Source of the DNA: Betaproteobacteria bacterium | GTDB taxonomy: Bacteria; Pseudomonadota; Gammaproteobacteria; Burkholderiales; SG8-39 | NCBI GenBank assembly: GCA_016868105.1 | Contig: VGIA01000015.1 | Location: forward strand, 1 to 35,577 | Length of the DNA: 35,577 nt | Direction: 5' to 3' | Shown here: one piece after another, positions 19,437 through 32,319 of the stretch | Layout of the letters: each line of letters starts with the position of its first letter | How positions within the stretch are numbered: the stretch's first letter is position 1 | Notes under the pieces: model-generated | Told to the model about the DNA's origin: nothing | Seen by the model: the letters and a program-made list of their open reading frames with translations, nothing else | Databases searched by the model: none | Made by a program: the position numbers and the translations under genes

Positions 19437-21061
19437 TCAGAGGCCCAGCCCGTGCCGTTCCTTCGCCGCAAGGGCGGTAGGATAGCCCGCATCCGCCAGC
19501 CGCAGAACGCCAAGACCGGTATCGCAGTCGAGAACGCGCTGCAGGCGGACCGCCGCGCCCTCGGTGCCCTCGGCGACGAGCGTGACGCCAGCGCTCTGCC
19601 CGTAATCGCACAGCTGGTGAATGGTGACGAGGTCAGCGCCCGCCGCTCCGTTGAGCAACGCGTTCAGGATCGGCCAGTCCGCGATCGCGTCCGATCCGTC
19701 CTTCATGTTCTCGGTCTCGCGGTAGGGCATGGCCGCCGACGCCGCGTCCAGGTGGTCGCGCGAGAAGGCGATCGGCCCGCTCAGCTCGCCCTTGGCGACC
19801 ATCGCGTTGACCAGCAGGGCGAGCCGGCTGCGCTCGCCGTGCCCAAGCCAGCCGATGCGCGCCGGCAAGCCCTGGAACTTGACCAGCTCCCGCGCCTTGC
19901 GGATCCAGGCGCAGACCTGTTCATTGCCGGGGAACTCACGCAGGATCAGGTCGTCGATGGCATGGATGTCGGCGGCATTGCCGGTGATCGCCATCCAGCG
20001 GAACGGCCCTATGCCTTCGCAGAAATACGGCCGGATGAACAGGTCGACGAACGAAGGCACCTCGAAGGCGCCCCTGGCCCCTCCGCCCACGGTGGCGCGG
20101 TTGCGCAGGTTGTTGCCGTACTCGAACACCACCGAGCCGCGGCGCTGGAACTCGGCCATCGCCTCGATGTGGATACGCATCGCTTCGTACACCAGCGGCT
20201 TCACGCTTTCCGGTTCGTTAGCCCACAGGCGCCGCGTCTCCTCCAGCGGCAGCGAGGCCGGGATGTACCCGCCCACCGGCTCGGTCGAAGTCTGGTCGGT
20301 GACCACGTCCGGGGTCAGCCTGCGCTTCAGCAACTCGGGCAGCACGTCTGCGCAATTGCCGACCAGGCCGACCGAGACCGGTTCTGCCTTGTCCCTCGCC
20401 GAGAGCACCAGCTTGAGCGCGGCATCGAGATCCCGCGCCATGTGCTGGCAGTAGCCGGTATCGATCCGGCGCTGGATCTTCGCCGCGTCGGCTTCCACCA
20501 CCAGCGTCGCGGCGCCGGCCATGTAGCCGGCCAGCGGCTGCGCGCCGCCCATGCCGCCGCAACCGCCGGTCACGAGCCAACGGCCGTTCAGCGTGCCGCC
20601 AAAATGCTTGCGCGCGCACGCCATGAAAGTCTCGTAGGTGCCCTGCACGATGCCCTGGCTGCCGATGTACTGCCAGGCGCCGGCGGTGAACCCCGGAACG
20701 ATCGTCAGTCCCTTGCGGGAGAACTCCTCCACCCGGTCATCGCTCGACCAGGCGGGAACCAGGTTGCCGTTGGCCATCACCACCAGCGGCCCGTCGCCGC
20801 GCGTGGTGAAGATGCCGATCGGCTTGCCCGACTGCATCACCAGCGTCTGCCCGACTTCGAGGCGCTTGAGCGCATCGACGATGCGTTCGTAGGCGTCCCA
20901 GTCGCGCGCCGCCTTGGCCACCGACATGTACACCACCAGCGCATCCGGGTTCTCGGCGTTCTCGAGGTTGTTCTCCAGCAGGCGAAGGATCGCTTCCTGC
21001 CTCCAGCCCTTGCAACGCAGTTCACTGCCGCGCTGGGCCTTCACCGGCCTTGGTCCTGCCG

Positions 21062-21065
<4 letters not shown>
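19437..21065 (-). CDS. divergent urocanate hydratase-like protein (signature Cys lost)
   Basis: A 542-residue member of the urocanase family and a clear paralogue of the second hydratase at 29198. It keeps the NAD-binding segment [18 protein letters not shown] (about 167-184), [35 protein letters not shown] and FQGLPARI. It differs at substrate-side positions. The signature [10 protein letters not shown] is [10 protein letters not shown], with Gly405 at the active-site Cys position. The loop [18 protein letters not shown] is replaced by the shorter TIHQLCDYGQSAGV (about 481-494). [11 protein letters not shown] is STEPVGGYIP, and YGGIGKAAR is YMSVAKAAR. I infer an NAD-dependent hydratase for a modified urocanate, such as thio- or S-methyl-thiourocanate; this is not shown. 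It is the last gene of the left arm and overlaps the livF-type stop (ATGA). The track's 608-aa version has a false N-terminus. Confidence 0.85.
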
Positions 21066-21767
<702 letters not shown>

Positions 21768-21775
<8 letters not shown>

Positions 21776-22517
21776 GGGCGGCCTGCACGCCGAGATAGGC
21801 ATCGCGCACGTCCTTGCGCGCCATGACTTCGCGCGGCTCGCCTTCGGCGAGGATCGCGCCGTTGTGCAGCACGAGCAGGCGGCCCGCGATGCGCGTCACT
21901 TCGCCCAGGTTGTGCTCGACCAGCACGATGGTCGTGCCCTCGGCATTGAGCTGCACGATGAGGTCTGCGAAACGCGCCGCCTCGGTGTAGTTCAGGCCGG
22001 CCAGCGGTTCGTCGAGCATCAGCAGGCGCGGCTCGAGGGCCAGCGCGCGCGCCACCTGCATGCGCTTCAGGTAACCCAGCGGCACGCTGTGGGCCGGCTT
22101 GTCGGCGGCATCCGCAATGCCAAGCCGCTCGAGCAGCGCGAGCGCCCGCTGGCGCGCCGGCCAGACCTCCACGCTCGCCAGCGCGCGCCAAGGCCGGCGC
22201 GTCACCTCGCTCGCCGCGGCAACCATGACGTTCTCCAGCAGGGTCATTTCCCGGAACGGCCGCACGATCTGGTGCGTGAGCACGAATCCGAGCTGGGCGC
22301 GGCGGTGGATGGGCACGCGGGTCACATCCTTGCCTTCGAAGCGCACGCTGCCCGCCTCCGGCGCCAGCACCCCGGTGAGCAGGCGCAGGAGCGTCGTCTT
22401 CCCGGCGCCGTTGGGGCCGATCAGCCCCGCTAGTTCGCCTCGCTCGACGCGCAGGTTCACGCCGTTGACGGCCCGAACGCCGCCGAACGCAATGCCGAGG
22501 CCGACGCCTTCGAGCAT
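21768..22517 (-). CDS. livG: branched-chain amino acid-type ABC transporter ATP-binding protein (LivG-like)
   Basis: A 249-residue LivG-type ATPase: MLEGVGLGIAFGGVRAVNGVNL, Walker A GPNGAGKTTLL, the LivG-specific FVLTHQIVRPFREMTLLENVMVAA, Walker B LLMLDEPLAGLN and switch His in LVEHNLGEV. The signature motif is unusual: VPLGYLKRMQVARALA stands where most ABC ATPases have LSGGQ and LivG has YGEQRRLEIARA. The Gly is kept but the Gln is not. The 808-aa track ORF fuses this frame with read-through of livM/livH; the real start is the ATG at 22515-22517. Confidence 0.92.
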
Positions 22518-22519
22518 GC

Positions 22520-23359
22520 TCAGGCGAGCCTGCGTCCGGTGACGCGATGCACCAGTCCGGCCAGCCCCTCGGGGCTGAAGCGCATCACCAGCAGCAGCAA
22601 TCCGCCATAGACCAGCAGCTTGTAGTCGTTGATGAAGCGAAACATCTCCGGCATCAGCGTGAGCAGCACCGCCCCGGCGACCACCCCCAGCGTGGAGCCG
22701 ATGCCGCCCACCACGACCATCGCCAGGATGGTCACCGACTGCACGAAATTGAACGCGTCCGGCACCACCAGCTGGGTCATGTGCGCGTAGATGCCGCCGG
22801 CGAGTCCCGCCGCCGCGGTGCCGATGAAGAACGCCGCGATCTTGTATCCCGACACGTCGACGCCGATGCTGCGCGCCGCATCCTCGTCCTGGGCGACGGC
22901 GCCGAACGCCCGGCCCATCCAGCTGCGCCGCACGTGCAGGCTGAGCAGCAGCACCGCCACCGCGCCGCCGATGGCCAACGCCGCGTAGCCCCATTTGTCG
23001 AGCGGCGACGGAATCTTGGCGATGCCCATCTCGGCGCCCAGCCAGGCCTGCTTGCGCACCGCGCCGAGGAACAGGAAACCGACGCCCATGGTCACGATGG
23101 CAAGGAAATCCTCGCGCACGCGCAGCGCGGCGAATCCGGTGACGATGCCGAAACCCCCCGCCACCAGCATGCCGACCGCCACCGAGACCCCCATCGGCAG
23201 TCCCGCCACGGAGCACAGCGCGGCAGCGTAGGCGCCAAGCCCGTAGAACGCGGCATGGCCGAGGCTCACCTGACCGCAGAACCCGCTGATCAGGTTGAGG
23301 CTGAGCGCGAGGATCACGTTGAGGCCGGCGAAGGTGGCGACCGAAAGGTAGTAGTCCAT
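22520..23359 (-). CDS. livM: branched-chain amino acid-type ABC transporter permease (LivM-like)
   Basis: A 279-residue membrane subunit with the LivM opening NVILALSLNLISGFCGQVSLGHAAFYGLGAYAAAL, the cytoplasmic VRRSWMGRAFGAVAQDEDAARSIGVDVSGYKIAAFFIGTAAAGLAGGIYAH, and VVVGGIGSTLGVVAGAV. These are all family-conserved, and the protein has about eight hydrophobic segments. It is separated by 2-3 bases from its neighbours on both sides. Confidence 0.93.
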   Translation of the reverse strand: MDYYLSVATFAGLNVILALSLNLISGFCGQVSLGHAAFYGLGAYAAALCSVAGLPMGVSVAVGMLVAGGFGIVTGFAALRVREDFLAIVTMGVGFLFLGAVRKQAWLGAEMGIAKIPSPLDKWGYAALAIGGAVAVLLLSLHVRRSWMGRAFGAVAQDEDAARSIGVDVSGYKIAAFFIGTAAAGLAGGIYAHMTQLVVPDAFNFVQSVTILAMVVVGGIGSTLGVVAGAVLLTLMPEMFRFINDYKLLVYGGLLLLVMRFSPEGLAGLVHRVTGRRLA

Positions 23360-23362
23360 GCC

Positions 23363-24229
23363 TCAGCGCGCCTTGCCGAGCAGGCCCTGGGGCCGGATCA
23401 TCAGCACCAGGATCAGGAACAGGAACGCGATGGCGTCCCGGTCCAACAGCTTGCCCAGATACACGGTGCCGAAGCTCTCCACGACGCCCAACAGCAGGCT
23501 CGCCAGCAACGTGCCCGGCACGTTGCCCAGCCCGCCCAGCACGATGATCGCCAGTCCCTTGTAGCTGATCACGCTGCCCATCCCCGGTTCGACGAGGTTG
23601 TTGAGCAGGCCGACCAGCACGCCGGCGACCCCGGCGAGCACCGAGGCGATGAAGAAGCTCGTATGCCGCACGCCCGAGACGCCGACGCCGAAACTCTCGG
23701 CGATCGACGGATCGGAAACCGTGGCCCTCCAGGCCACCCCTGCGCGGGTGCGGGTGGCGAACAGCGCAAACAGCGACAGCAGCACCACTGCCGCAACCGC
23801 GATCCAGACCTGCACCAGGTTCAGGCTCAGGCCGCCAAAACCCACCGCGGTCGTGAACCAGGTGTTCTTGGCGAACGACAACCCGTAGGGTCCGAAGAGC
23901 AGCCGGAAGCCGTCTTCCATCGCGATCAGCAGGCCGATCGAGGCCACCAGCGCCACGAACGGGGGCTTGTCGAGGATCGGCCGGTAGATGAACCGGTAGA
24001 CCAGTGGCCCCAGCAGGCCGGCGGCCAGCGCGGCCGCGACGAACGCGCCGGCCAGGCTGCCGGTGTGGTTGGCCACCAGCAGCCCGACATACGCGCCGAG
24101 CGTGAACACCGTCGCCTGCGCCACGTGCAGGATGCGCAGCAGGCCATACACCAGCGTCAGCCCGAGCGCCATCATGGCGTAGGTACAGCCCCACACCAGC
24201 CCGACCAGCAGCAGTTCGAGGTAGAACAC
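23363..24229 (-). CDS. livH: branched-chain amino acid-type ABC transporter permease (LivH-like)
   Basis: A 288-residue membrane subunit with the LivH N-terminus GCTYAMMALGLTLVYGLLRILHVAQATVFTLGAYVGLL. The conserved core is AGVAWRATVSDPSIAESFGVGVSGVRHTSFFIASVLAGVAGVLVG, followed by GSVISYKGLAIIVLGGLGNVPGTLLASLLLGV. It ends MIRPQGLLGKAR, as usual for the family. It lies 21 bp after the receptor gene. Confidence 0.93.
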   Translation of the reverse strand: MFYLELLLVGLVWGCTYAMMALGLTLVYGLLRILHVAQATVFTLGAYVGLLVANHTGSLAGAFVAAALAAGLLGPLVYRFIYRPILDKPPFVALVASIGLLIAMEDGFRLLFGPYGLSFAKNTWFTTAVGFGGLSLNLVQVWIAVAAVVLLSLFALFATRTRAGVAWRATVSDPSIAESFGVGVSGVRHTSFFIASVLAGVAGVLVGLLNNLVEPGMGSVISYKGLAIIVLGGLGNVPGTLLASLLLGVVESFGTVYLGKLLDRDAIAFLFLILVLMIRPQGLLGKAR

Positions 24230-24250: not shown

Positions 24251-25402
24251 TTACTTGGTCGGGGGCGCGAGCAGCACCGGATCGTCGATGGTGGCGAAGT
24301 GACGGAACTTTCCGCCCCTGATCACCTGGATCTGCGCCGCCTTGTAGACCTCGCCGAGCTCGTTGAACGAAATGCGCCCGGTGGCCACCTCGAAGTCCTT
24401 CAGGCCGGAGATCGCGGCGCGGATCCTGGCGCCATCATCGACGCCGCCCCTGCGCAGGCCTTCGGCGACCACGTACAGGGCGGTATGCGTGCTGGCCGCC
24501 ACCATGTCCGCCGGAACCTTGAACTTGGTCTCGAAGTCCGCGATGAACCGGCGCATCGGCGCTGCGCTGCTGTCGCGGTCGAGCGACGTGGTGATCATCA
24601 CGCCCTCCGCAGCGTCCTTGGCGATGGCGATGAAGTTGTGGGTGTCGAAGCCCTCGGTGCCGATGATCGGCACCGTGACCCCGCCGGCGCGCAACTGCGC
24701 CACCAGCGGCCCGCCGTTGAAGAAGTATCCGGAAACGTACAGCGCCTCGGGGTCGTCCTTCTTCACGCTGGCGACGATCGAGCCGAACTGCCGGTCGCCC
24801 ATCGCATAGGTGTGCTCTGCGGCGATCTGGATGCCGAACCTGCCCGCCACCTCCTTGAATCCTGCCGACAGCGCCTGGCCGAAGTCGTTGTTCAGCGTGA
24901 CCAGGGTCACTTTCTTCTTCTTCAGGTTGTCGCCGATCAGCTTGGCCGCGGCGCGCCCCTGCACCTCACCCATGAAGGAGGTGCGGAAGACGTAGTTCCC
25001 GGCGCGCGTGATGTCGGGGTGGATGGCGTAGGCCGATACGTAAGGCACCTTCGCCTGGTGGAACACGCCGGCGGCGGCACGCGTCGGACCCGAGTAACTG
25101 CCCGAGACCACCACCCTGAGGCCGTCGCCGATGAACTTGTTGGCCAGGGGCAGCGCCTGGTCGGGCCGCGCCTGGTCGTCCTGGATCACCAGTTCCAGCC
25201 GGCGTCCGTTGACGCCGCCCGCAGCGTTGATCTGCTCGACGGCGAGCTCGGCGCCCTGCACCGCGGACTTGCCATCCGCCGCGGCAAAGCCGGTCAGCGG
25301 CGCGTGAAAGCCGATGCGGATGTTCTGGGCGGCCGCGGGTGCGGCGAACGCCGCTGCGACCAAGGCAGTGAAGATCAGTCTGCTGCTGGACTTGATGGAC
25401 AT
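24251..25402 (-). CDS. branched-chain amino acid-type ABC transporter substrate-binding protein (LivK-like)
   Basis: A 383-residue periplasmic receptor of the Peripla_BP_6 family. It has the signal peptide MSIKSSSRLIFTALVAAAFAAPAAAQ, then IRIGFHAPLTGFAAADGKSAVQGAELAVEQINAAGGVNGRRLELVIQDDQARPDQA, a standard opening. GSYSGPTRAAAGVFHQAKVPYVSAYAIHPDITRAGNYVFRT follows. AAGGAG lies upstream of the ATG. It feeds LivHMGF. The placement between hutI and the urocanase-like gene suggests it binds histidine or a modified histidine/urocanate; this is context only. Confidence 0.92.
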   Translation of the reverse strand: MSIKSSSRLIFTALVAAAFAAPAAAQNIRIGFHAPLTGFAAADGKSAVQGAELAVEQINAAGGVNGRRLELVIQDDQARPDQALPLANKFIGDGLRVVVSGSYSGPTRAAAGVFHQAKVPYVSAYAIHPDITRAGNYVFRTSFMGEVQGRAAAKLIGDNLKKKKVTLVTLNNDFGQALSAGFKEVAGRFGIQIAAEHTYAMGDRQFGSIVASVKKDDPEALYVSGYFFNGGPLVAQLRAGGVTVPIIGTEGFDTHNFIAIAKDAAEGVMITTSLDRDSSAAPMRRFIADFETKFKVPADMVAASTHTALYVVAEGLRRGGVDDGARIRAAISGLKDFEVATGRISFNELGEVYKAAQIQVIRGGKFRHFATIDDPVLLAPPTK

Positions 25403-25429: not shown

Positions 25430-26731
25430 TCAGGACGCCAGGCGTCCGTGTTGCACCTTGATGCTGCCGTTGGCGATCACCGTGTCGGCAAGATTGACGC
25501 CGAACCGGTTGATCACCATGCCGTGGTTGGCGACGTTCCAGATGACGAGGTCGGCGCGCTTTCCTGCCTCGATGCTACCGCGATCATGCGACAAGTCCAG
25601 CGCGCGTGCCGCATTCAGCGTGCACATGTTCCAGATTTCCGCGTAGCCGAGGCGGAACAAGCGCGCCGCGAGCGCCATCACCATCTGCATCGACGGCGTC
25701 GGGCAGCTGCCGGGGTTGTAGTCGGTCGACAGGGCGGCCACCACGCCCGCCTCGAGCGCCCGGCGCACCACCATCGGCAGGAACGGTTTCTCCGCCCCCT
25801 CCAGCGCCGAGCCGGCGAAACGCGGCGTCATTTCGCACAAGTGCAGGGTCACCCCCGGCAGGAACGTCGCCACCGTGCCAGCCTCGGCCATGGCGCGAAA
25901 CCCCTCGTCCGTCGTGTAATCCAGATGGTCCGCGCCCGAGGCCGAGAGCGCGGCCGCGGCGAGGCCGCCGCGGGCGTCGCCGTGCTGGTCGGCGTGCAGG
26001 CGGACCTTCATGCCAAGCGCGCGCGCCGCGTTGCCGACCCGCAGGCATTCGTCGTAGGTGAAACACAGGGGGTCGCAGGATACGTCGCAGTACTTCGCAA
26101 GCCCGCTTGCCGCCTGCAACGACGCCACCGCGGCATCGATGTATTCCTTGCGACGGTCGTCGTAGCCTTCGGGCAGCACGTGCAGCGGCAGGAACGTCGG
26201 GACCACGTCGACCGCATGGCGCAGGCCCGCGGTCAGCCGCAGCAGACGCAGTTCGCCCTCGCGGTCCAGCGCGTAGCCTGTCTTCGCCTCCAGCGTGGTG
26301 GTGCCATGCAGCAGCATGGTGTCGAGGTCGCTCATCGCCTGCTTCACCAGTGCCGCGTCCGAGGTCTGGCGGGTCCTCGACACCGTGAAGCGGATTCCGC
26401 CGTCGAGTCGCCGCGCCGGGGCGCGCTGGGTGACCTTCGCCTCGTACTCTTCGTGCCGCGTCCCGCCGAACAGAAGGTGGGAGTGAGGATCGACGAAACC
26501 GGGCGTCACCAGGCGCCCGGTTGCATCCAGCACCGTCGGCGCGCTCCAGGACTTCGCCACCTCTGCGCTCGAGCCCAGGGCAAGGATGCGGCCGCCGCCG
26601 ACCGCGACAGCGCCGTCGGCGATGATGTCCGTTTGCCGCAGCGCCTCGCCCCGCAGGCCTTCGGCCGGACCGCGGCAGGTCAGCAATTCCCCGGCCTGCA
26701 CGATCAGCAGGTCGGCATTGTGCTTTGCCAT
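25430..26731 (-). CDS. hutI: imidazolonepropionase (HutI family)
   Basis: A 433-residue amidohydrolase that opens the imidazolone ring to give N-formimidoyl-glutamate. It has the metal pair in VTPGFVDPHSHLLFGGTRHEEYE (H83, H85), GTTTLEAKTGYALDREGELRLLR, FLPLHVLPEGY, the metal His in RLHADQHGDARGG, GADHLDYTTDEG, LLPGVTLHLCE-like FLPGVTLHLCE, and the Asp in LSTDYNPGSCPTPS. All are in HutI order. It is somewhat divergent from typical HutI (TGYALD for SGYGLD, STDYNPGSC for ATDxNPGTS). It is the first gene of the left arm, divergent from iclR with 23 bp between start codons, and is the only hutI in the window, so it probably serves the canonical histidine pathway. No ribosome site is visible; the start codon lies inside the 43-bp palindrome. 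Confidence 0.8.
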   Translation of the reverse strand: MAKHNADLLIVQAGELLTCRGPAEGLRGEALRQTDIIADGAVAVGGGRILALGSSAEVAKSWSAPTVLDATGRLVTPGFVDPHSHLLFGGTRHEEYEAKVTQRAPARRLDGGIRFTVSRTRQTSDAALVKQAMSDLDTMLLHGTTTLEAKTGYALDREGELRLLRLTAGLRHAVDVVPTFLPLHVLPEGYDDRRKEYIDAAVASLQAASGLAKYCDVSCDPLCFTYDECLRVGNAARALGMKVRLHADQHGDARGGLAAAALSASGADHLDYTTDEGFRAMAEAGTVATFLPGVTLHLCEMTPRFAGSALEGAEKPFLPMVVRRALEAGVVAALSTDYNPGSCPTPSMQMVMALAARLFRLGYAEIWNMCTLNAARALDLSHDRGSIEAGKRADLVIWNVANHGMVINRFGVNLADTVIANGSIKVQHGRLAS

Positions 26732-26764
26732 AGAGTGGCATACTATTCCATTCTATGGCAAAGC
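26722..26764. promoter_or_regulatory. 43-bp near-perfect palindrome spanning the hutI and iclR start codons
   Basis: Two 21-base arms (26722-26742 and 26744-26764) match at 19 of 21 positions around a single central C. The outer part is GCTTTGCCATAGA / TCTATGGCAAAGC and the inner part is TGGCATA-C-TATTCCA. The inner 15 bases resemble the TGGAAA-type operators bound by IclR proteins. The palindrome contains the whole intergenic gap and both ATG codons, so both genes begin ATGGCAAAGC. Weak -10-like boxes (TACTAT one way, TAGTAT the other) lie 8-11 bases from each ATG, and neither gene has a visible Shine-Dalgarno sequence, which suggests leaderless or nearly leaderless messages. Confidence 0.75.
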
Positions 26765-27468
26765 GGCAAGGCGCCCCCCGCAAGCCTGCCCGTGCCGCGG
26801 AGCCCGGCCCGGTGCGCGCGGTGCAGCGGGCGTTTGACCTGCTGGCGCACCTTGGCGATGGCCAGCCCGCGCCTACGCTGTCGGCGCTGGCGCGCAGCAG
26901 CGGCCTTGCGGTGAGCACCGTGGCGCGCCTGCTCGCCGCGCTGGAGCACGCAGGCTTCGTCCACCGCGTTGGCGCGGGCTACGAACCGGGAACGCGCCTG
27001 GTGCAGATGGGACTGTCGGCGCTCAGACGGCTCGACGTGTTCGACCTTGCCGAACCGCACCTGCGGCGCCTCTGCGCCGCGAGCGGCGAGACGGCCAACC
27101 TGGCGACGCGGGCCGACGCCGAGCATGCGATCTACCTGCGTCAGGTGGTCAGCCCAAAGAGCATTCACCACGCCAGCTGGCTGGGCCGCATGCTTCCCGT
27201 GGCCCGGACGGCGGTCGGGCAGGCGCTTGCCGGCAACGTGAATGCCACCGGCTACATCGCGAGAAAGAACACGCTGGAACCCGACGTGACCGCGATCGCG
27301 GCTCCGATCCGGGGCGCGGCAGGCGAAATCGCCGCGGCGCTCAGCATCACCGGCCCCTCGTATCGCATCAGCGAGGCCGACATCCGGCGCTACGGCGCGC
27401 TGGTCGCGGAGGAAGCACGCCTTGCCTCCGAGGTGCTCGGCGCGCGCCTGCGCGCGGTGCAGCAATGA
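26755..27468 (+). CDS. IclR family transcriptional regulator
   Basis: A 237-residue IclR-type regulator. The winged helix-turn-helix covers about 18-80: VRAVQRAFDLLAHLGDGQPAPTLSALARSSGLAVSTVARLLAALEHAGFVHRVGAGYEPGTRL. The C-terminal effector domain includes ASGETANLATRADAEHAIYLRQV and VARTAVGQALAG. It is divergent from hutI and overlaps the ureohydrolase gene by four bases (ATGA), so it heads the right arm of the histidine island and probably controls both arms through the shared palindrome. Urocanate or a related imidazole is a natural effector candidate, but nothing in the sequence proves it. HutC, the usual hut repressor, is a GntR-type protein, so an IclR here is a departure from the textbook arrangement. 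Confidence 0.9.
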   Translation: MAKRQGAPRKPARAAEPGPVRAVQRAFDLLAHLGDGQPAPTLSALARSSGLAVSTVARLLAALEHAGFVHRVGAGYEPGTRLVQMGLSALRRLDVFDLAEPHLRRLCAASGETANLATRADAEHAIYLRQVVSPKSIHHASWLGRMLPVARTAVGQALAGNVNATGYIARKNTLEPDVTAIAAPIRGAAGEIAAALSITGPSYRISEADIRRYGALVAEEARLASEVLGARLRAVQQ

Positions 27469-28406
27469 AGCCCCTCGCTTTGCCGCCCGCAGGATCGAGC
27501 GTGGGGTTTCTTGCCTCCCCTTTCGTGCCGATCGAATCGCTAGCTGCAGACTTCGCCGTCCTGGGCATCGCGCACGGCGTGCCCTACCACGTGCGCAATC
27601 TCGCCGCCAGCGTGGCCGACGCGCCGCGTGCCGTGCGCGAACGCTCGGCGCGCTTTGGCCGCATGGCGACCCATCACGACTTCGACCTTGGCCGCGCGCT
27701 CGCGGACCCTGCGCCACCGCGGCTCGCCGACTGCGGCGACGTGCCCTGCGACCTGCGCGACCTGCCGGGCAGCGCCGCGCGCGCCACCCGCGCGGTTCGC
27801 GCCATCCTCGAGGCCGGCGCGATGCCGATCGTGCTGGGGGGCGACGACTCCATCACCGCGATCGCGCTGGGCGCCTTCGAAGGCCGCGGGCCCCTGCACG
27901 TGCTGCAGATCGACGCCCACCTCGACTACCGGGACGAGGTCGACGGCGTGCGCGACGGCTACTCCAGTCCCATGCGGCGAGCCGCGGAAATGCCCTGGGT
28001 CGAGCGCATCGTCCATTGCGGCACCCGCGGCGTCGGCAGCGCCCGCCCGGCCGACCTGCGGGACACCTTGGCGCGCGGCAACGCGATCGTGACGGCGAGC
28101 GAGGTGCGGCGGCACGGCATCGAGCGCGTGCTCGCGGAATTCCCGGAGGGTGGGCGGTACTACATCGCCTTCGACTGCGACGGCGTCGATCCGTCGGTCA
28201 TGCCGGGCACCAGCGCGCCGCTGCCCGGGGGGCTGTGCTATGACGACACCCGCGATCTGCTCACCGGGCTCGCGCGCCGCGGCAGCCTGGCTGGCATCAG
28301 CTTCGCGGAGCATTACCCCTCGCTCGACGTGAACGGCATCACCGCCCTCGCCATCGTGCGCCTCATCGTCAACCTCATCGCCATTGTCGGGAAACCACAA
28401 CCATGA
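27465..28406 (+). CDS. ureohydrolase (agmatinase/arginase/formimidoylglutamase family), GGDD variant
   Basis: A 313-residue binuclear-manganese hydrolase of the ureohydrolase fold. Metal motifs are VLGGDDSI (125-130), IDAHLDYRDE (D150, H152, D154) and AFDCDGVDPSVMPGTSAP (D237, D239). In the common form the first motif is GGDHS with His as ligand; here it is Asp128. YSSPMRRAAEMPW replaces the agmatinase SHGTPFRR. The context suggests formimidoylglutamate or another amidino compound. FTCD already handles formimidoylglutamate in this operon, so either the two are alternatives or this enzyme acts on another guanidino- or formimidoyl-type compound. It is coupled to iclR before and to the PhyH gene after (ATGA overlaps). 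Confidence 0.85.
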   Translation: MKPLALPPAGSSVGFLASPFVPIESLAADFAVLGIAHGVPYHVRNLAASVADAPRAVRERSARFGRMATHHDFDLGRALADPAPPRLADCGDVPCDLRDLPGSAARATRAVRAILEAGAMPIVLGGDDSITAIALGAFEGRGPLHVLQIDAHLDYRDEVDGVRDGYSSPMRRAAEMPWVERIVHCGTRGVGSARPADLRDTLARGNAIVTASEVRRHGIERVLAEFPEGGRYYIAFDCDGVDPSVMPGTSAPLPGGLCYDDTRDLLTGLARRGSLAGISFAEHYPSLDVNGITALAIVRLIVNLIAIVGKPQP

Positions 28407-29188
28407 CCGATGCCGACATCGAGCTGTTCCAGGCCGACGGAGCGATCGTGCTCCGCGGCGTGTTCCGCGACTGGGTCGAGCCCCTGCGTGCCGGCGTCGC
28501 GCGCAACCGGGCCTCGCCCAGTCCGCTGGAGCGCACGGTCAGGCCCGCCGACGGTTCGGCGGCGTTCTTCCAGGACTACTGCAACTGGCAGCGGATACCC
28601 GAGTACCGCGCGTTCGTCTTCGAGTCACCCGCCGCCGCCCTCGCTGCCCGCCTGATGCGTTCGAAGACAGCGCGCTTCTTTCACGAGCACGTGCTGGTCA
28701 AGGACCCGGGCACCAGCGTGGTCACCCCCTGGCACCAGGACCAGCCGTACTACTGCGTCGATGGCGGCCAGAGCGTGAGTCTGTGGATTGCGCTCGATCC
28801 GGTCGCGCGCGACACGGTGATGGAATGCGTCGCCGGTTCGCACCTCTGGGGCAAAGGCTTCAAGCCGATGCGATTCGACGGCACGCCGCTGTATCCGAAC
28901 GACAACCTCGAGGCGATCCCGGATATCGACGCCAGGCGTGGCGAGCTGCGCATCCTCGGCTGGGAGCTCGAGCCGGGCGACGCCATTGCCTTCACGTTCC
29001 GCACCGTCCACGGCGCCCCGGCCAACACCGCCTCGCGCCCCAGACGGGCGTTCTCTGCGCGCTGGGTCGGGGACGATGCGGTATTCGCCGTTCGCGCCGG
29101 GCGCACTTCGCCGCCGTTTCCCAACCTCAAGCTGCCGGCGGGCGCACCGCTCGATGCGCCTGAATTCCCCCTCGTCCATTCGCACTGA
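28403..29188 (+). CDS. phytanoyl-CoA dioxygenase (PhyH) family oxygenase
   Basis: A 261-residue Fe(II)/2-oxoglutarate-dependent oxygenase of the PhyH family. The iron triad is visible: H111 and D113 in TPWHQDQPYY, and H203 in FRTVHGAPAN. The 2-oxoglutarate-binding Arg is probably in the RPRRAFSARWVGDD stretch. VSLWIALDPVARDTVMECVAGSH is typical of the family. It is translationally coupled to the ureohydrolase gene and is followed after 9 bp by hutU. Oxygenases of this type are not part of the standard hut pathway. A hydroxylation that prepares a modified histidine is an inference. Confidence 0.87.
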   Translation: MTDADIELFQADGAIVLRGVFRDWVEPLRAGVARNRASPSPLERTVRPADGSAAFFQDYCNWQRIPEYRAFVFESPAAALAARLMRSKTARFFHEHVLVKDPGTSVVTPWHQDQPYYCVDGGQSVSLWIALDPVARDTVMECVAGSHLWGKGFKPMRFDGTPLYPNDNLEAIPDIDARRGELRILGWELEPGDAIAFTFRTVHGAPANTASRPRRAFSARWVGDDAVFAVRAGRTSPPFPNLKLPAGAPLDAPEFPLVHSH

Positions 29189-29197
29189 AGGATTTTC

Positions 29198-30861
<1,664 letters not shown>

Positions 30862-30865
<4 letters not shown>

Positions 30866-32319
30866 GCCACCTCGTCGGCCGCCAGCCGCTGTCGCTGCCC
30901 GTGCTGCGGCGCATCGCCGCGGACGGCATTCCGCTCTCGCTCGACCCGGCCTGCATACCCGGGCTGCAGGCCGCGGTCGCCGCCATCGAGCAGATCGTCG
31001 ACGCCGGCGCGCCGGCCTACGGCATCAACACCGGCTTTGGCAAGCTCGCACAGACCAAGATCGAGCGATCCGAACTCGAGCACCTGCAGGAAAACCTGGT
31101 GCTGTCCCACGCCGCCGGGGTCGGGCCGCCCCTGACGGACGACGCGGTGCGTCTCACCATCGCCCTGAAGGTGGCGAGCCTCGCCCGCGGCCGCTCCGGC
31201 GTGCGCCCCGAGGTGATCGACGCGCTGCTTGCCCTGTACAACCAGCGCCGCTACCCGCACATCCCGTCCAAGGGCTCGGTCGGTGCCTCAGGCGATCTGG
31301 CGCCCCTCGCCCACCTCGCGATGGCGCTGATGCCGATGCGATTCGCGCCGAAGGAAGGCCTGGCGCTGCTGAACGGCACGCAGGTCTCCACCGGGCTCGC
31401 CCTGAAGGGCCTGTTCGCCATCGAGAACGTGTTCGCCGCCGCGCTCGCGGCCGGTGCGCTGTCGGTGGACGCCGCGATGGGCAGCGACACGCCGTTCGAC
31501 GACCGCATCCATGAGCTGCGCGGGCACGCCGGCCAGCGCGACACCGCCGCCGCGTATCGCGCGCTGCTCGCCGGCAGCGAGATCCGCGCCTCGCACCTCA
31601 TGGGCGACGACCGCGTGCAGGACCCCTACTCGCTGCGCTGCCAGCCGCAGGTGATGGGCGCGTGCCTGGACGCGATGCGCAACGCCGCCGAGACCCTTCG
31701 CATCGAGGCCAACGGCGTCTCGGACAACCCGCTGGTGTTCGCCGAGACCCGCGAAGTGCTGTCCGGCGGCAACTTCCACGCCGAGCCGGTGGCGCTGGCG
31801 GCCGACGCGCTGGCGCTGGCCTGCGCCGAGATCGGCGCGCTCGCAGAGCGGCGCATCGCCTTGCTGATCGATGGCGCCATCAGCCGGCTGCCGCCGTTCA
31901 TCGTCGAGCATGGCGGGCTCAATTCCGGCTTCATGGTGGCGCAGGTCACCGCCGCGGCGCTCGCCAGCGAGAACAAGGCGCTGGCGCACCCGGCAAGCGT
32001 GGACAGCCTGCCGACCTCGGCGAACCAGGAGGACCACGTCAGCATGGCGACCTTCGCCGCGCGGCGCCTCGCCGACATGGCCGACAACAGCGCCGGCATC
32101 ATTGCCATCGAGTTGCTCGCCGCAGCGCAGGGCGTCGACTTCCGCCGGCCGCGGCGCACCTCGCCCGCGTTGCAGCAGGTGCACGCGGAGGTGCGCAGCG
32201 AGGTGCCTTTCTACGACAGGGACCGTCACTTCGCGCCCGACATCGAGGCGATCAAGGCGATGGTGCTCGCCGGCAGGTTCAACCGCCACGCGGGCACGCT
32301 GCTGCCTTCGGGGGGATGA
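30862..32319 (+). CDS. hutH: histidine ammonia-lyase
   Basis: This is a 485-residue lyase that removes ammonia from histidine to give urocanate. The MIO cofactor forms from A142-S143-G144 in [16 protein letters not shown]53 in [11 protein letters not shown] is the catalytic Tyr. H83 in VLSHAAGVG and [10 protein letters not shown] match true histidine lyases, so I see no sign of a switch to ergothionase or tyrosine/phenylalanine specificity. The track start at 30760 is too early; the ATG at 30862 overlaps the hutU stop. The 3' end overlaps a 35-codon ORF (ATGA). Confidence 0.95.

Follow-up and report, generated by a model that had tools for sequence, protein, structure and literature searches.

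The window, the whole 35,577-nucleotide stretch of a Betaproteobacteria bacterium contig that was analysed, holds two genes of the urocanase family located 8 kb apart (Table 1). The forward-strand copy is a canonical HutU, as already recognized in a preliminary description of this DNA. The other, named UroP here, is the last gene of an operon comprising hutI-like and livKHMGF. The genes for an IclR-type regulator and an arginase-family hydrolase are divergent from this operon, with 23 bp between the starts of iclR and hutI-like. The start ATG of UroP overlaps the livF stop (GCATGACG) and is preceded by AAGGAG; because of this overlap, UroP is probably co-translated with the liv genes. Its codon-position base composition agrees with that of the neighboring genes. 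TctC, sulfatase, aminotransferase and HDAC-like genes found downstream of UroP were not conserved beside its three orthologues (loci L024, L025 and L026).

Table 1. Positions of the two urocanase-family genes and of the UroP-associated genes in the window
Feature	Positions	Strand	Basis
UroP, urocanase-superfamily hydratase, short-loop (S-methylthiourocanate hydratase) clade	19437..21065	-	NCBIfam, PDB, tree, AlphaFold2
LivF ATPase; stop overlaps UroP start codon	21062..21802	-	Pfam ABC_tran
LivG ATPase, 5' end approximate	21768..22520	-	frame read; homologues in L024-L026, L167, L174
LivM permease	22520..23359	-	Pfam BPD_transp_2
LivH permease	23363..24229	-	Pfam BPD_transp_2
LivK periplasmic binding protein, hut-associated Liv subfamily	24251..25402	-	Pfam Peripla_BP_6
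HutI-like imidazolonepropionase, rare subfamily, first UroP-operon gene	25430..26731	-	TIGR01224 333 bits, cut-off 298
IclR-type regulator, divergent	26755..27468	+	Pfam HTH_IclR, IclR_C; kept in L024-L026, L106, L167, L174
Arginase/formimidoylglutamase-superfamily hydrolase	27465..28406	+	PDB relatives agmatinase, guanidinobutyrase, formimidoylglutamase
Canonical HutU, for comparison	29198..30865	+	hutU 928 bits

Several of the neighboring genes showed features of their own. The HutI-like protein was the sole HutI above the family cut-off in the window genome. The arginase-family hydrolase scored far below the cut-offs of the agmatinase and hutG models, and GGDDS replaces the metal-ligand motif GGDHS that is usual in its PDB relatives. 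GGDDS is common to L025, L026, L174 and L106, with relatives down to 50% identity; clades A and D of the UroP tree described below are among these loci. The best plasmid relatives of LivK were the LivK of the Agrobacterium UroP plasmid (45%) and that of the Thermus hut operon (42%), the next one standing at 32%. A gene for a PhyH-type dioxygenase (28403-29185, forward strand), unusual for a hut locus, lies between the arginase gene and hutU and also adjoins hutU in genomes G001 and G020. HutH (30862-32319, forward strand) has 24 residues fewer than its longest relatives at one loop. A damaged reading frame, considered on account of a split profile match, was dropped since this loop becomes shorter by degrees among congeners, which have 15 residues fewer there; from these alignments the gap is probably a loop shortening, not damage.

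UroP has an open reading frame of 542 amino acids with all three Pfam urocanase domains and an unchanged NAD-binding motif. Codon 19851-19853 (GGC) encodes Gly405 at the position where urocanases have a cysteine. Residues 482-493, IHQLCDYGQSAG, encoded by 19587-19622, stand in place of the GGGVGMGYS loop of HutU and are four residues fewer in the alignment. These features had been described correctly before, save that the 13-letter loop string given then starts one codon earlier. Within this loop, residue 486 (19608-19610) is a cysteine (HQLCDYG), and the three orthologues have a glycine there. Comparison with these orthologues, which are 82-86% identical, yielded dN/dS values of about 0.19, 0.11 and 0.21, like the value of 0.20 for the canonical HutU of the window. 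Judged from its sequence, UroP is under purifying selection, an intact and functional paralogue with an altered substrate site. The loss of the canonical motifs is the single point in favor of a decaying, functionless HutU duplicate. The intact frame, the dN/dS values, the conservation of the operon in four genomes and a tree position outside HutU refuted this idea, to which we give practically no credence. The earlier view of a changed substrate site in place of decay was thereby confirmed.

The phylogeny suggested in the preliminary description, with urocanate, thiourocanate and S-methylthiourocanate hydratases, placed UroP with the S-methylthiourocanate hydratase. In the tree of 57 rows, HutU, the thiourocanate hydratases (with PDB entry 7ned) and a short-loop clade containing UroP and PDB entry 8q9v formed separate groups. 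The short-loop clade (support 100/99) was sister to the thiourocanate hydratases (100/98), with HutU apart. UroP and its three orthologues, from four genomes in all (G000, G061, G062 and G063), constitute clade A. Clade B consists of proteins from Pantoea, Agrobacterium, Bradyrhizobium and Lichenihabitans (60-63% identity) and clade C of 8q9v together with L003/L152 of genome G032. A protein encoded on a Paracoccus seriniphilus plasmid (L106) is referred to as clade D; its branch is long and its position in the UroP tree unsure. With the full alignment, a tree that forces clade A together with HutU was rejected (p-AU 0.0002). Upon removal of the diagnostic segments the same groups were recovered, and the union of clade A with HutU was only weakly disfavored (p-AU 0.084).

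Structural comparison pointed in the same direction. The PDB chains closest in sequence to UroP were 8q9v/8q9u (650 bits, 55% identity), ahead of 7ned and HutU. According to their PDB titles, these entries are Variovorax sp. RA8 S-methylthiourocanate hydratase. In fold as well, 8q9v/8q9u gave the best match to the AlphaFold2 model of UroP (pLDDT 90.0, pTM 0.90), with a TM score of 0.96. HutU (1uwk and others) shares the fold, the NAD+ motif and the catalytic frame with UroP at about 47-50% identity, but keeps the cysteine and GGGVGMGYS and belongs to a separate clade. Among the NCBIfam models, whose names we use for the family identities, NF058531 (S-methylthiourocanate hydratase) ranked first for UroP with 867 bits, followed by TuuH (thiourocanate hydratase) with 706 and hutU with 670. 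The cut-off of NF058531, 880 bits, was passed by the sister sequences L024 (896) and L026 (894), but missed by UroP and L025 (864). The HutU cut-off (TIGR01228, 375 bits) was exceeded by all three urocanase types and does not discriminate between them.

The aligned set provided sequence marks for each type. The cysteine and the long loop occurred together in 54 HutU-type proteins, while Gly or Ala occupied the cysteine position in 45 proteins of the thiourocanate hydratase type and in 18 short-loop proteins. The short-loop clade is marked by Y-M-S/N/A at positions 46-48, Gly100, Gly125, Gln132, Gly/Ala405, Arg449 and the loop shortened by four. UroP carries the marks of the S-methylthiourocanate hydratase, namely Gly/Ala in PARI[GA]W, the loop minus four and Arg449 (450 in 8q9v), and shares Met47, Gly100, Gly125 and Gln132 with 8q9v/8q9u. 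It differs from them by Phe115, Phe126 and Ala442, which are particular to clade A. The loss of the cysteine and of the loop noted earlier is thus no novelty: both occur throughout a clade that is already known and structurally solved, and thiourocanate hydratases have the cysteine change too. As a separate observation, an otherwise canonical HutU with a long loop in G032 (L022) has Leu in place of the signature cysteine (PARILW).

UroP could also be thought of as a thiourocanate hydratase belonging to the usual ergothioneine route, given that it shares Gly405, Gln132 and Gly125 with this sister clade. However, it reached 706 bits against a cut-off of 930 (NF058530), and it has PYRETE and lacks both PNIMTE and the long IHSGGGGYxGYMTSAG loop that were present in 45/45 thiourocanate-type proteins. 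Since the partner genes of that route were not found at cut-off in clade A genomes either, as detailed below, we judge this assignment improbable.

Gene neighborhoods set clade A apart from its relatives. The order arginase - IclR, divergent from HutI-like - LivKHMGF - UroP, was preserved in L025 and L026, and in L024 up to the contig end; HutI-like, arginase and IclR genes also adjoin UroP of clade D. In clade B loci, by contrast, an S-methyl-thiohydantoin desulfurase gene (formerly DUF917) is adjacent, usually along with a GST. For Agrobacterium and Lichenihabitans, the locus also contains ErtE (N-carbamyl-glutamate hydrolase) and ErtD (hydantoin-propionate hydrolase), and both are likewise present in the genome of Bradyrhizobium macuxiense. 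In clade C, a desulfurase gene lies next to the hydratase gene of L003/L152. Desulfurase, ErtD and ErtE, which form the ergothioneine sulfur route, are thus the typical company of the S-methylthiourocanate hydratase type. The desulfurase family was wholly absent from the four clade A genomes, and neither ErtD nor ErtE was found there at the family cut-off, whereas searches of the clade B positive controls W01, W02 and G428 all gave hits. No desulfurase, ErtD or ErtE was present on the whole Paracoccus seriniphilus plasmid. In Agrobacterium and Pantoea, the gene that immediately follows that of the clade B enzyme encodes a molybdopterin S/N-oxide reductase (L105:16635-18974 and L027:11620-13950), hinting at a sulfoxide substrate upstream.

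The HutI-like protein belongs to a rare subfamily. Its gene adjoins 5/5 UroP genes of clades A and D, strict matches occurred in 3/61 related genomes, and it formed a clade of its own with the HutI neighboring UroP in Paracoccus (support 99/97), the only plasmid match to it at E<1e-60. Genome G026 has HutI-like and no UroP. In G020, where HutI-like is also present, the contig stops inside livF, where uroP would come next, and UroP was found nowhere else in the genome. The Liv importer, IclR and arginase were dropped as UroP-specific partners in view of the UroP-free loci L167 and L174 and a Thermus plasmid. In a congener (G001), a near-identical Liv set (LivM 95%, LivH 90% at L167) is located beside canonical hutU/hutH, PhyH and IclR in the absence of UroP, and on the Thermus plasmid hutU-hutI-hutH follow Liv genes of the same subfamily. 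The LivFGMHK importer, named earlier as a transport partner, therefore does not point to a special substrate. Since the importer and other partners also occur at hut loci without UroP, UroP seems to have been added to a locus of hut type.

Two further observations concern urocanase genes in related genomes. In G062, right beside the UroP locus, we found a further divergent urocanase, P0002 (L150:3849-5813, reverse strand), which keeps the cysteine in PARVCYLG, has the loop IQANYSMGEAAHTG and GGMGANQPRA, and had a best NCBIfam score of 642, under the S-methyl cut-off. Its gene cluster also encodes a HutF, a MetE-like protein and a HutI that is itself divergent. In several genomes of this bacterial family, a MetE-like gene (cobalamin-independent methionine synthase family) adjoins canonical hutU as well, at L163:8395-9543, L165:468-1607, L166:2172-3332 and L170:5955-7637.

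The hut-like surroundings raise the question of whether UroP is an additional HutU that acts on plain, imported urocanate, or whether its substrate is some other modified urocanate, with the loci being hut loci and HutI-like their sole HutI. Every partner indeed occurs with canonical hut genes in relatives (Liv in G001 and Thermus; arginase, HutI-like and Liv in G020). In addition, 8q9v was crystallized with imidazolone propionate and 7ned with urocanate, so that plain urocanate can at least bind. The equally constrained canonical HutU 8 kb away, however, speaks against this reading, as does the canonical HutI retained beside HutI-like in G062 and G026. Loss of the cysteine and the clade A-specific Phe115, Phe126 and Ala442 point to a substrate other than urocanate. 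UroP has neither the signature cysteine nor a GGGVGMGYS-type loop and lies outside the HutU clade. We regard this possibility as unlikely.

Hydration of an N-methylated urocanate would account for the absence of the desulfurase from clade A genomes: HutI-like and a formimidoylglutamase-like hydrolase suit a route free of sulfur chemistry, which would lead to glutamate and N-methylformamide. Bacterial breakdown of Ntau-methylhistidine, the catabolism concerned, is published (cited in PMC11432326). But UroP nests in a branch whose characterized members use 2-thio-substituted urocanates, and the open cysteine position, shared with the thiourocanate hydratases, fits a group at C2, not an N-methyl group. 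A second lyase, moreover, was not found in clade A genomes. This proposal seems rather unlikely to us.

With modest confidence we favor the view that UroP depends on NAD+ to hydrate a C2-substituted urocanate, S-methylthiourocanate being the most likely candidate, and that it was added on to a variant histidine-utilisation locus, its product probably being handled by HutI-like and then by the arginase-family hydrolase. Of the earlier proposal of a new, modified urocanate substrate, the class of (S-methyl-)thiourocanates stands as the best candidate, by the match to 8q9v/8q9u and the tree, but the type of enzyme is not new. The partner genes give an S-methyl substrate no support, given that desulfurase, ErtD and ErtE are missing at cut-off. 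With these partners absent and the NF058531 cut-off missed, we do not file UroP as a confirmed S-methylthiourocanate hydratase; most likely it works like one. No ergothionase-like lyase was detected in clade A genomes, which have one HAL-fold gene each, a canonical HutH, or none; G062 carries UroP, HutI-like, arginase, IclR and Liv without any HutH. The substrate would thus be imported and not made inside from ergothioneine.

Mechanistically, UroP would leave the urocanase mechanism, NAD+ and the general catalytic frame unchanged, with the small Gly405 and the shortened loop presumably making room for the C2 group. Hydration by the established urocanase reaction would convert a C2-substituted urocanate to a 2-substituted imidazolone propionate, of which HutI-like would open the ring to an N-(substituted amidino)glutamate. 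The arginase-family hydrolase would then cut the amidine to release glutamate, in the S-methyl case together with S-methyl thiocarbamate. Ring opening and amidine cleavage would in this way replace desulfuration. As a tentative and rather speculative extension, a second, desulfurase-free route may exist in Betaproteobacteria and on the Paracoccus plasmid: UroP would hydrate imported S-methylthiourocanate, HutI-like would open the 2-methylthio-imidazolone, and the GGDDS hydrolase would cut the isothiourea to glutamate and S-methyl thiocarbamate, the sulfur leaving with the carbon.

In conclusion, the enzyme type of UroP is already known, and it is the subclade and the pathway neighborhood that constitute a new setting. 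By default, homologues of urocanase receive the name HutU; the residue following PARI, the loop length and the neighbor genes tell the three urocanase types apart. With clade A, the breakdown of histidine derivatives modified by sulfur would reach genomes without known desulfurase genes, and the locus of this clade offers a testable three-enzyme route consisting of UroP, HutI-like and the arginase-family hydrolase.
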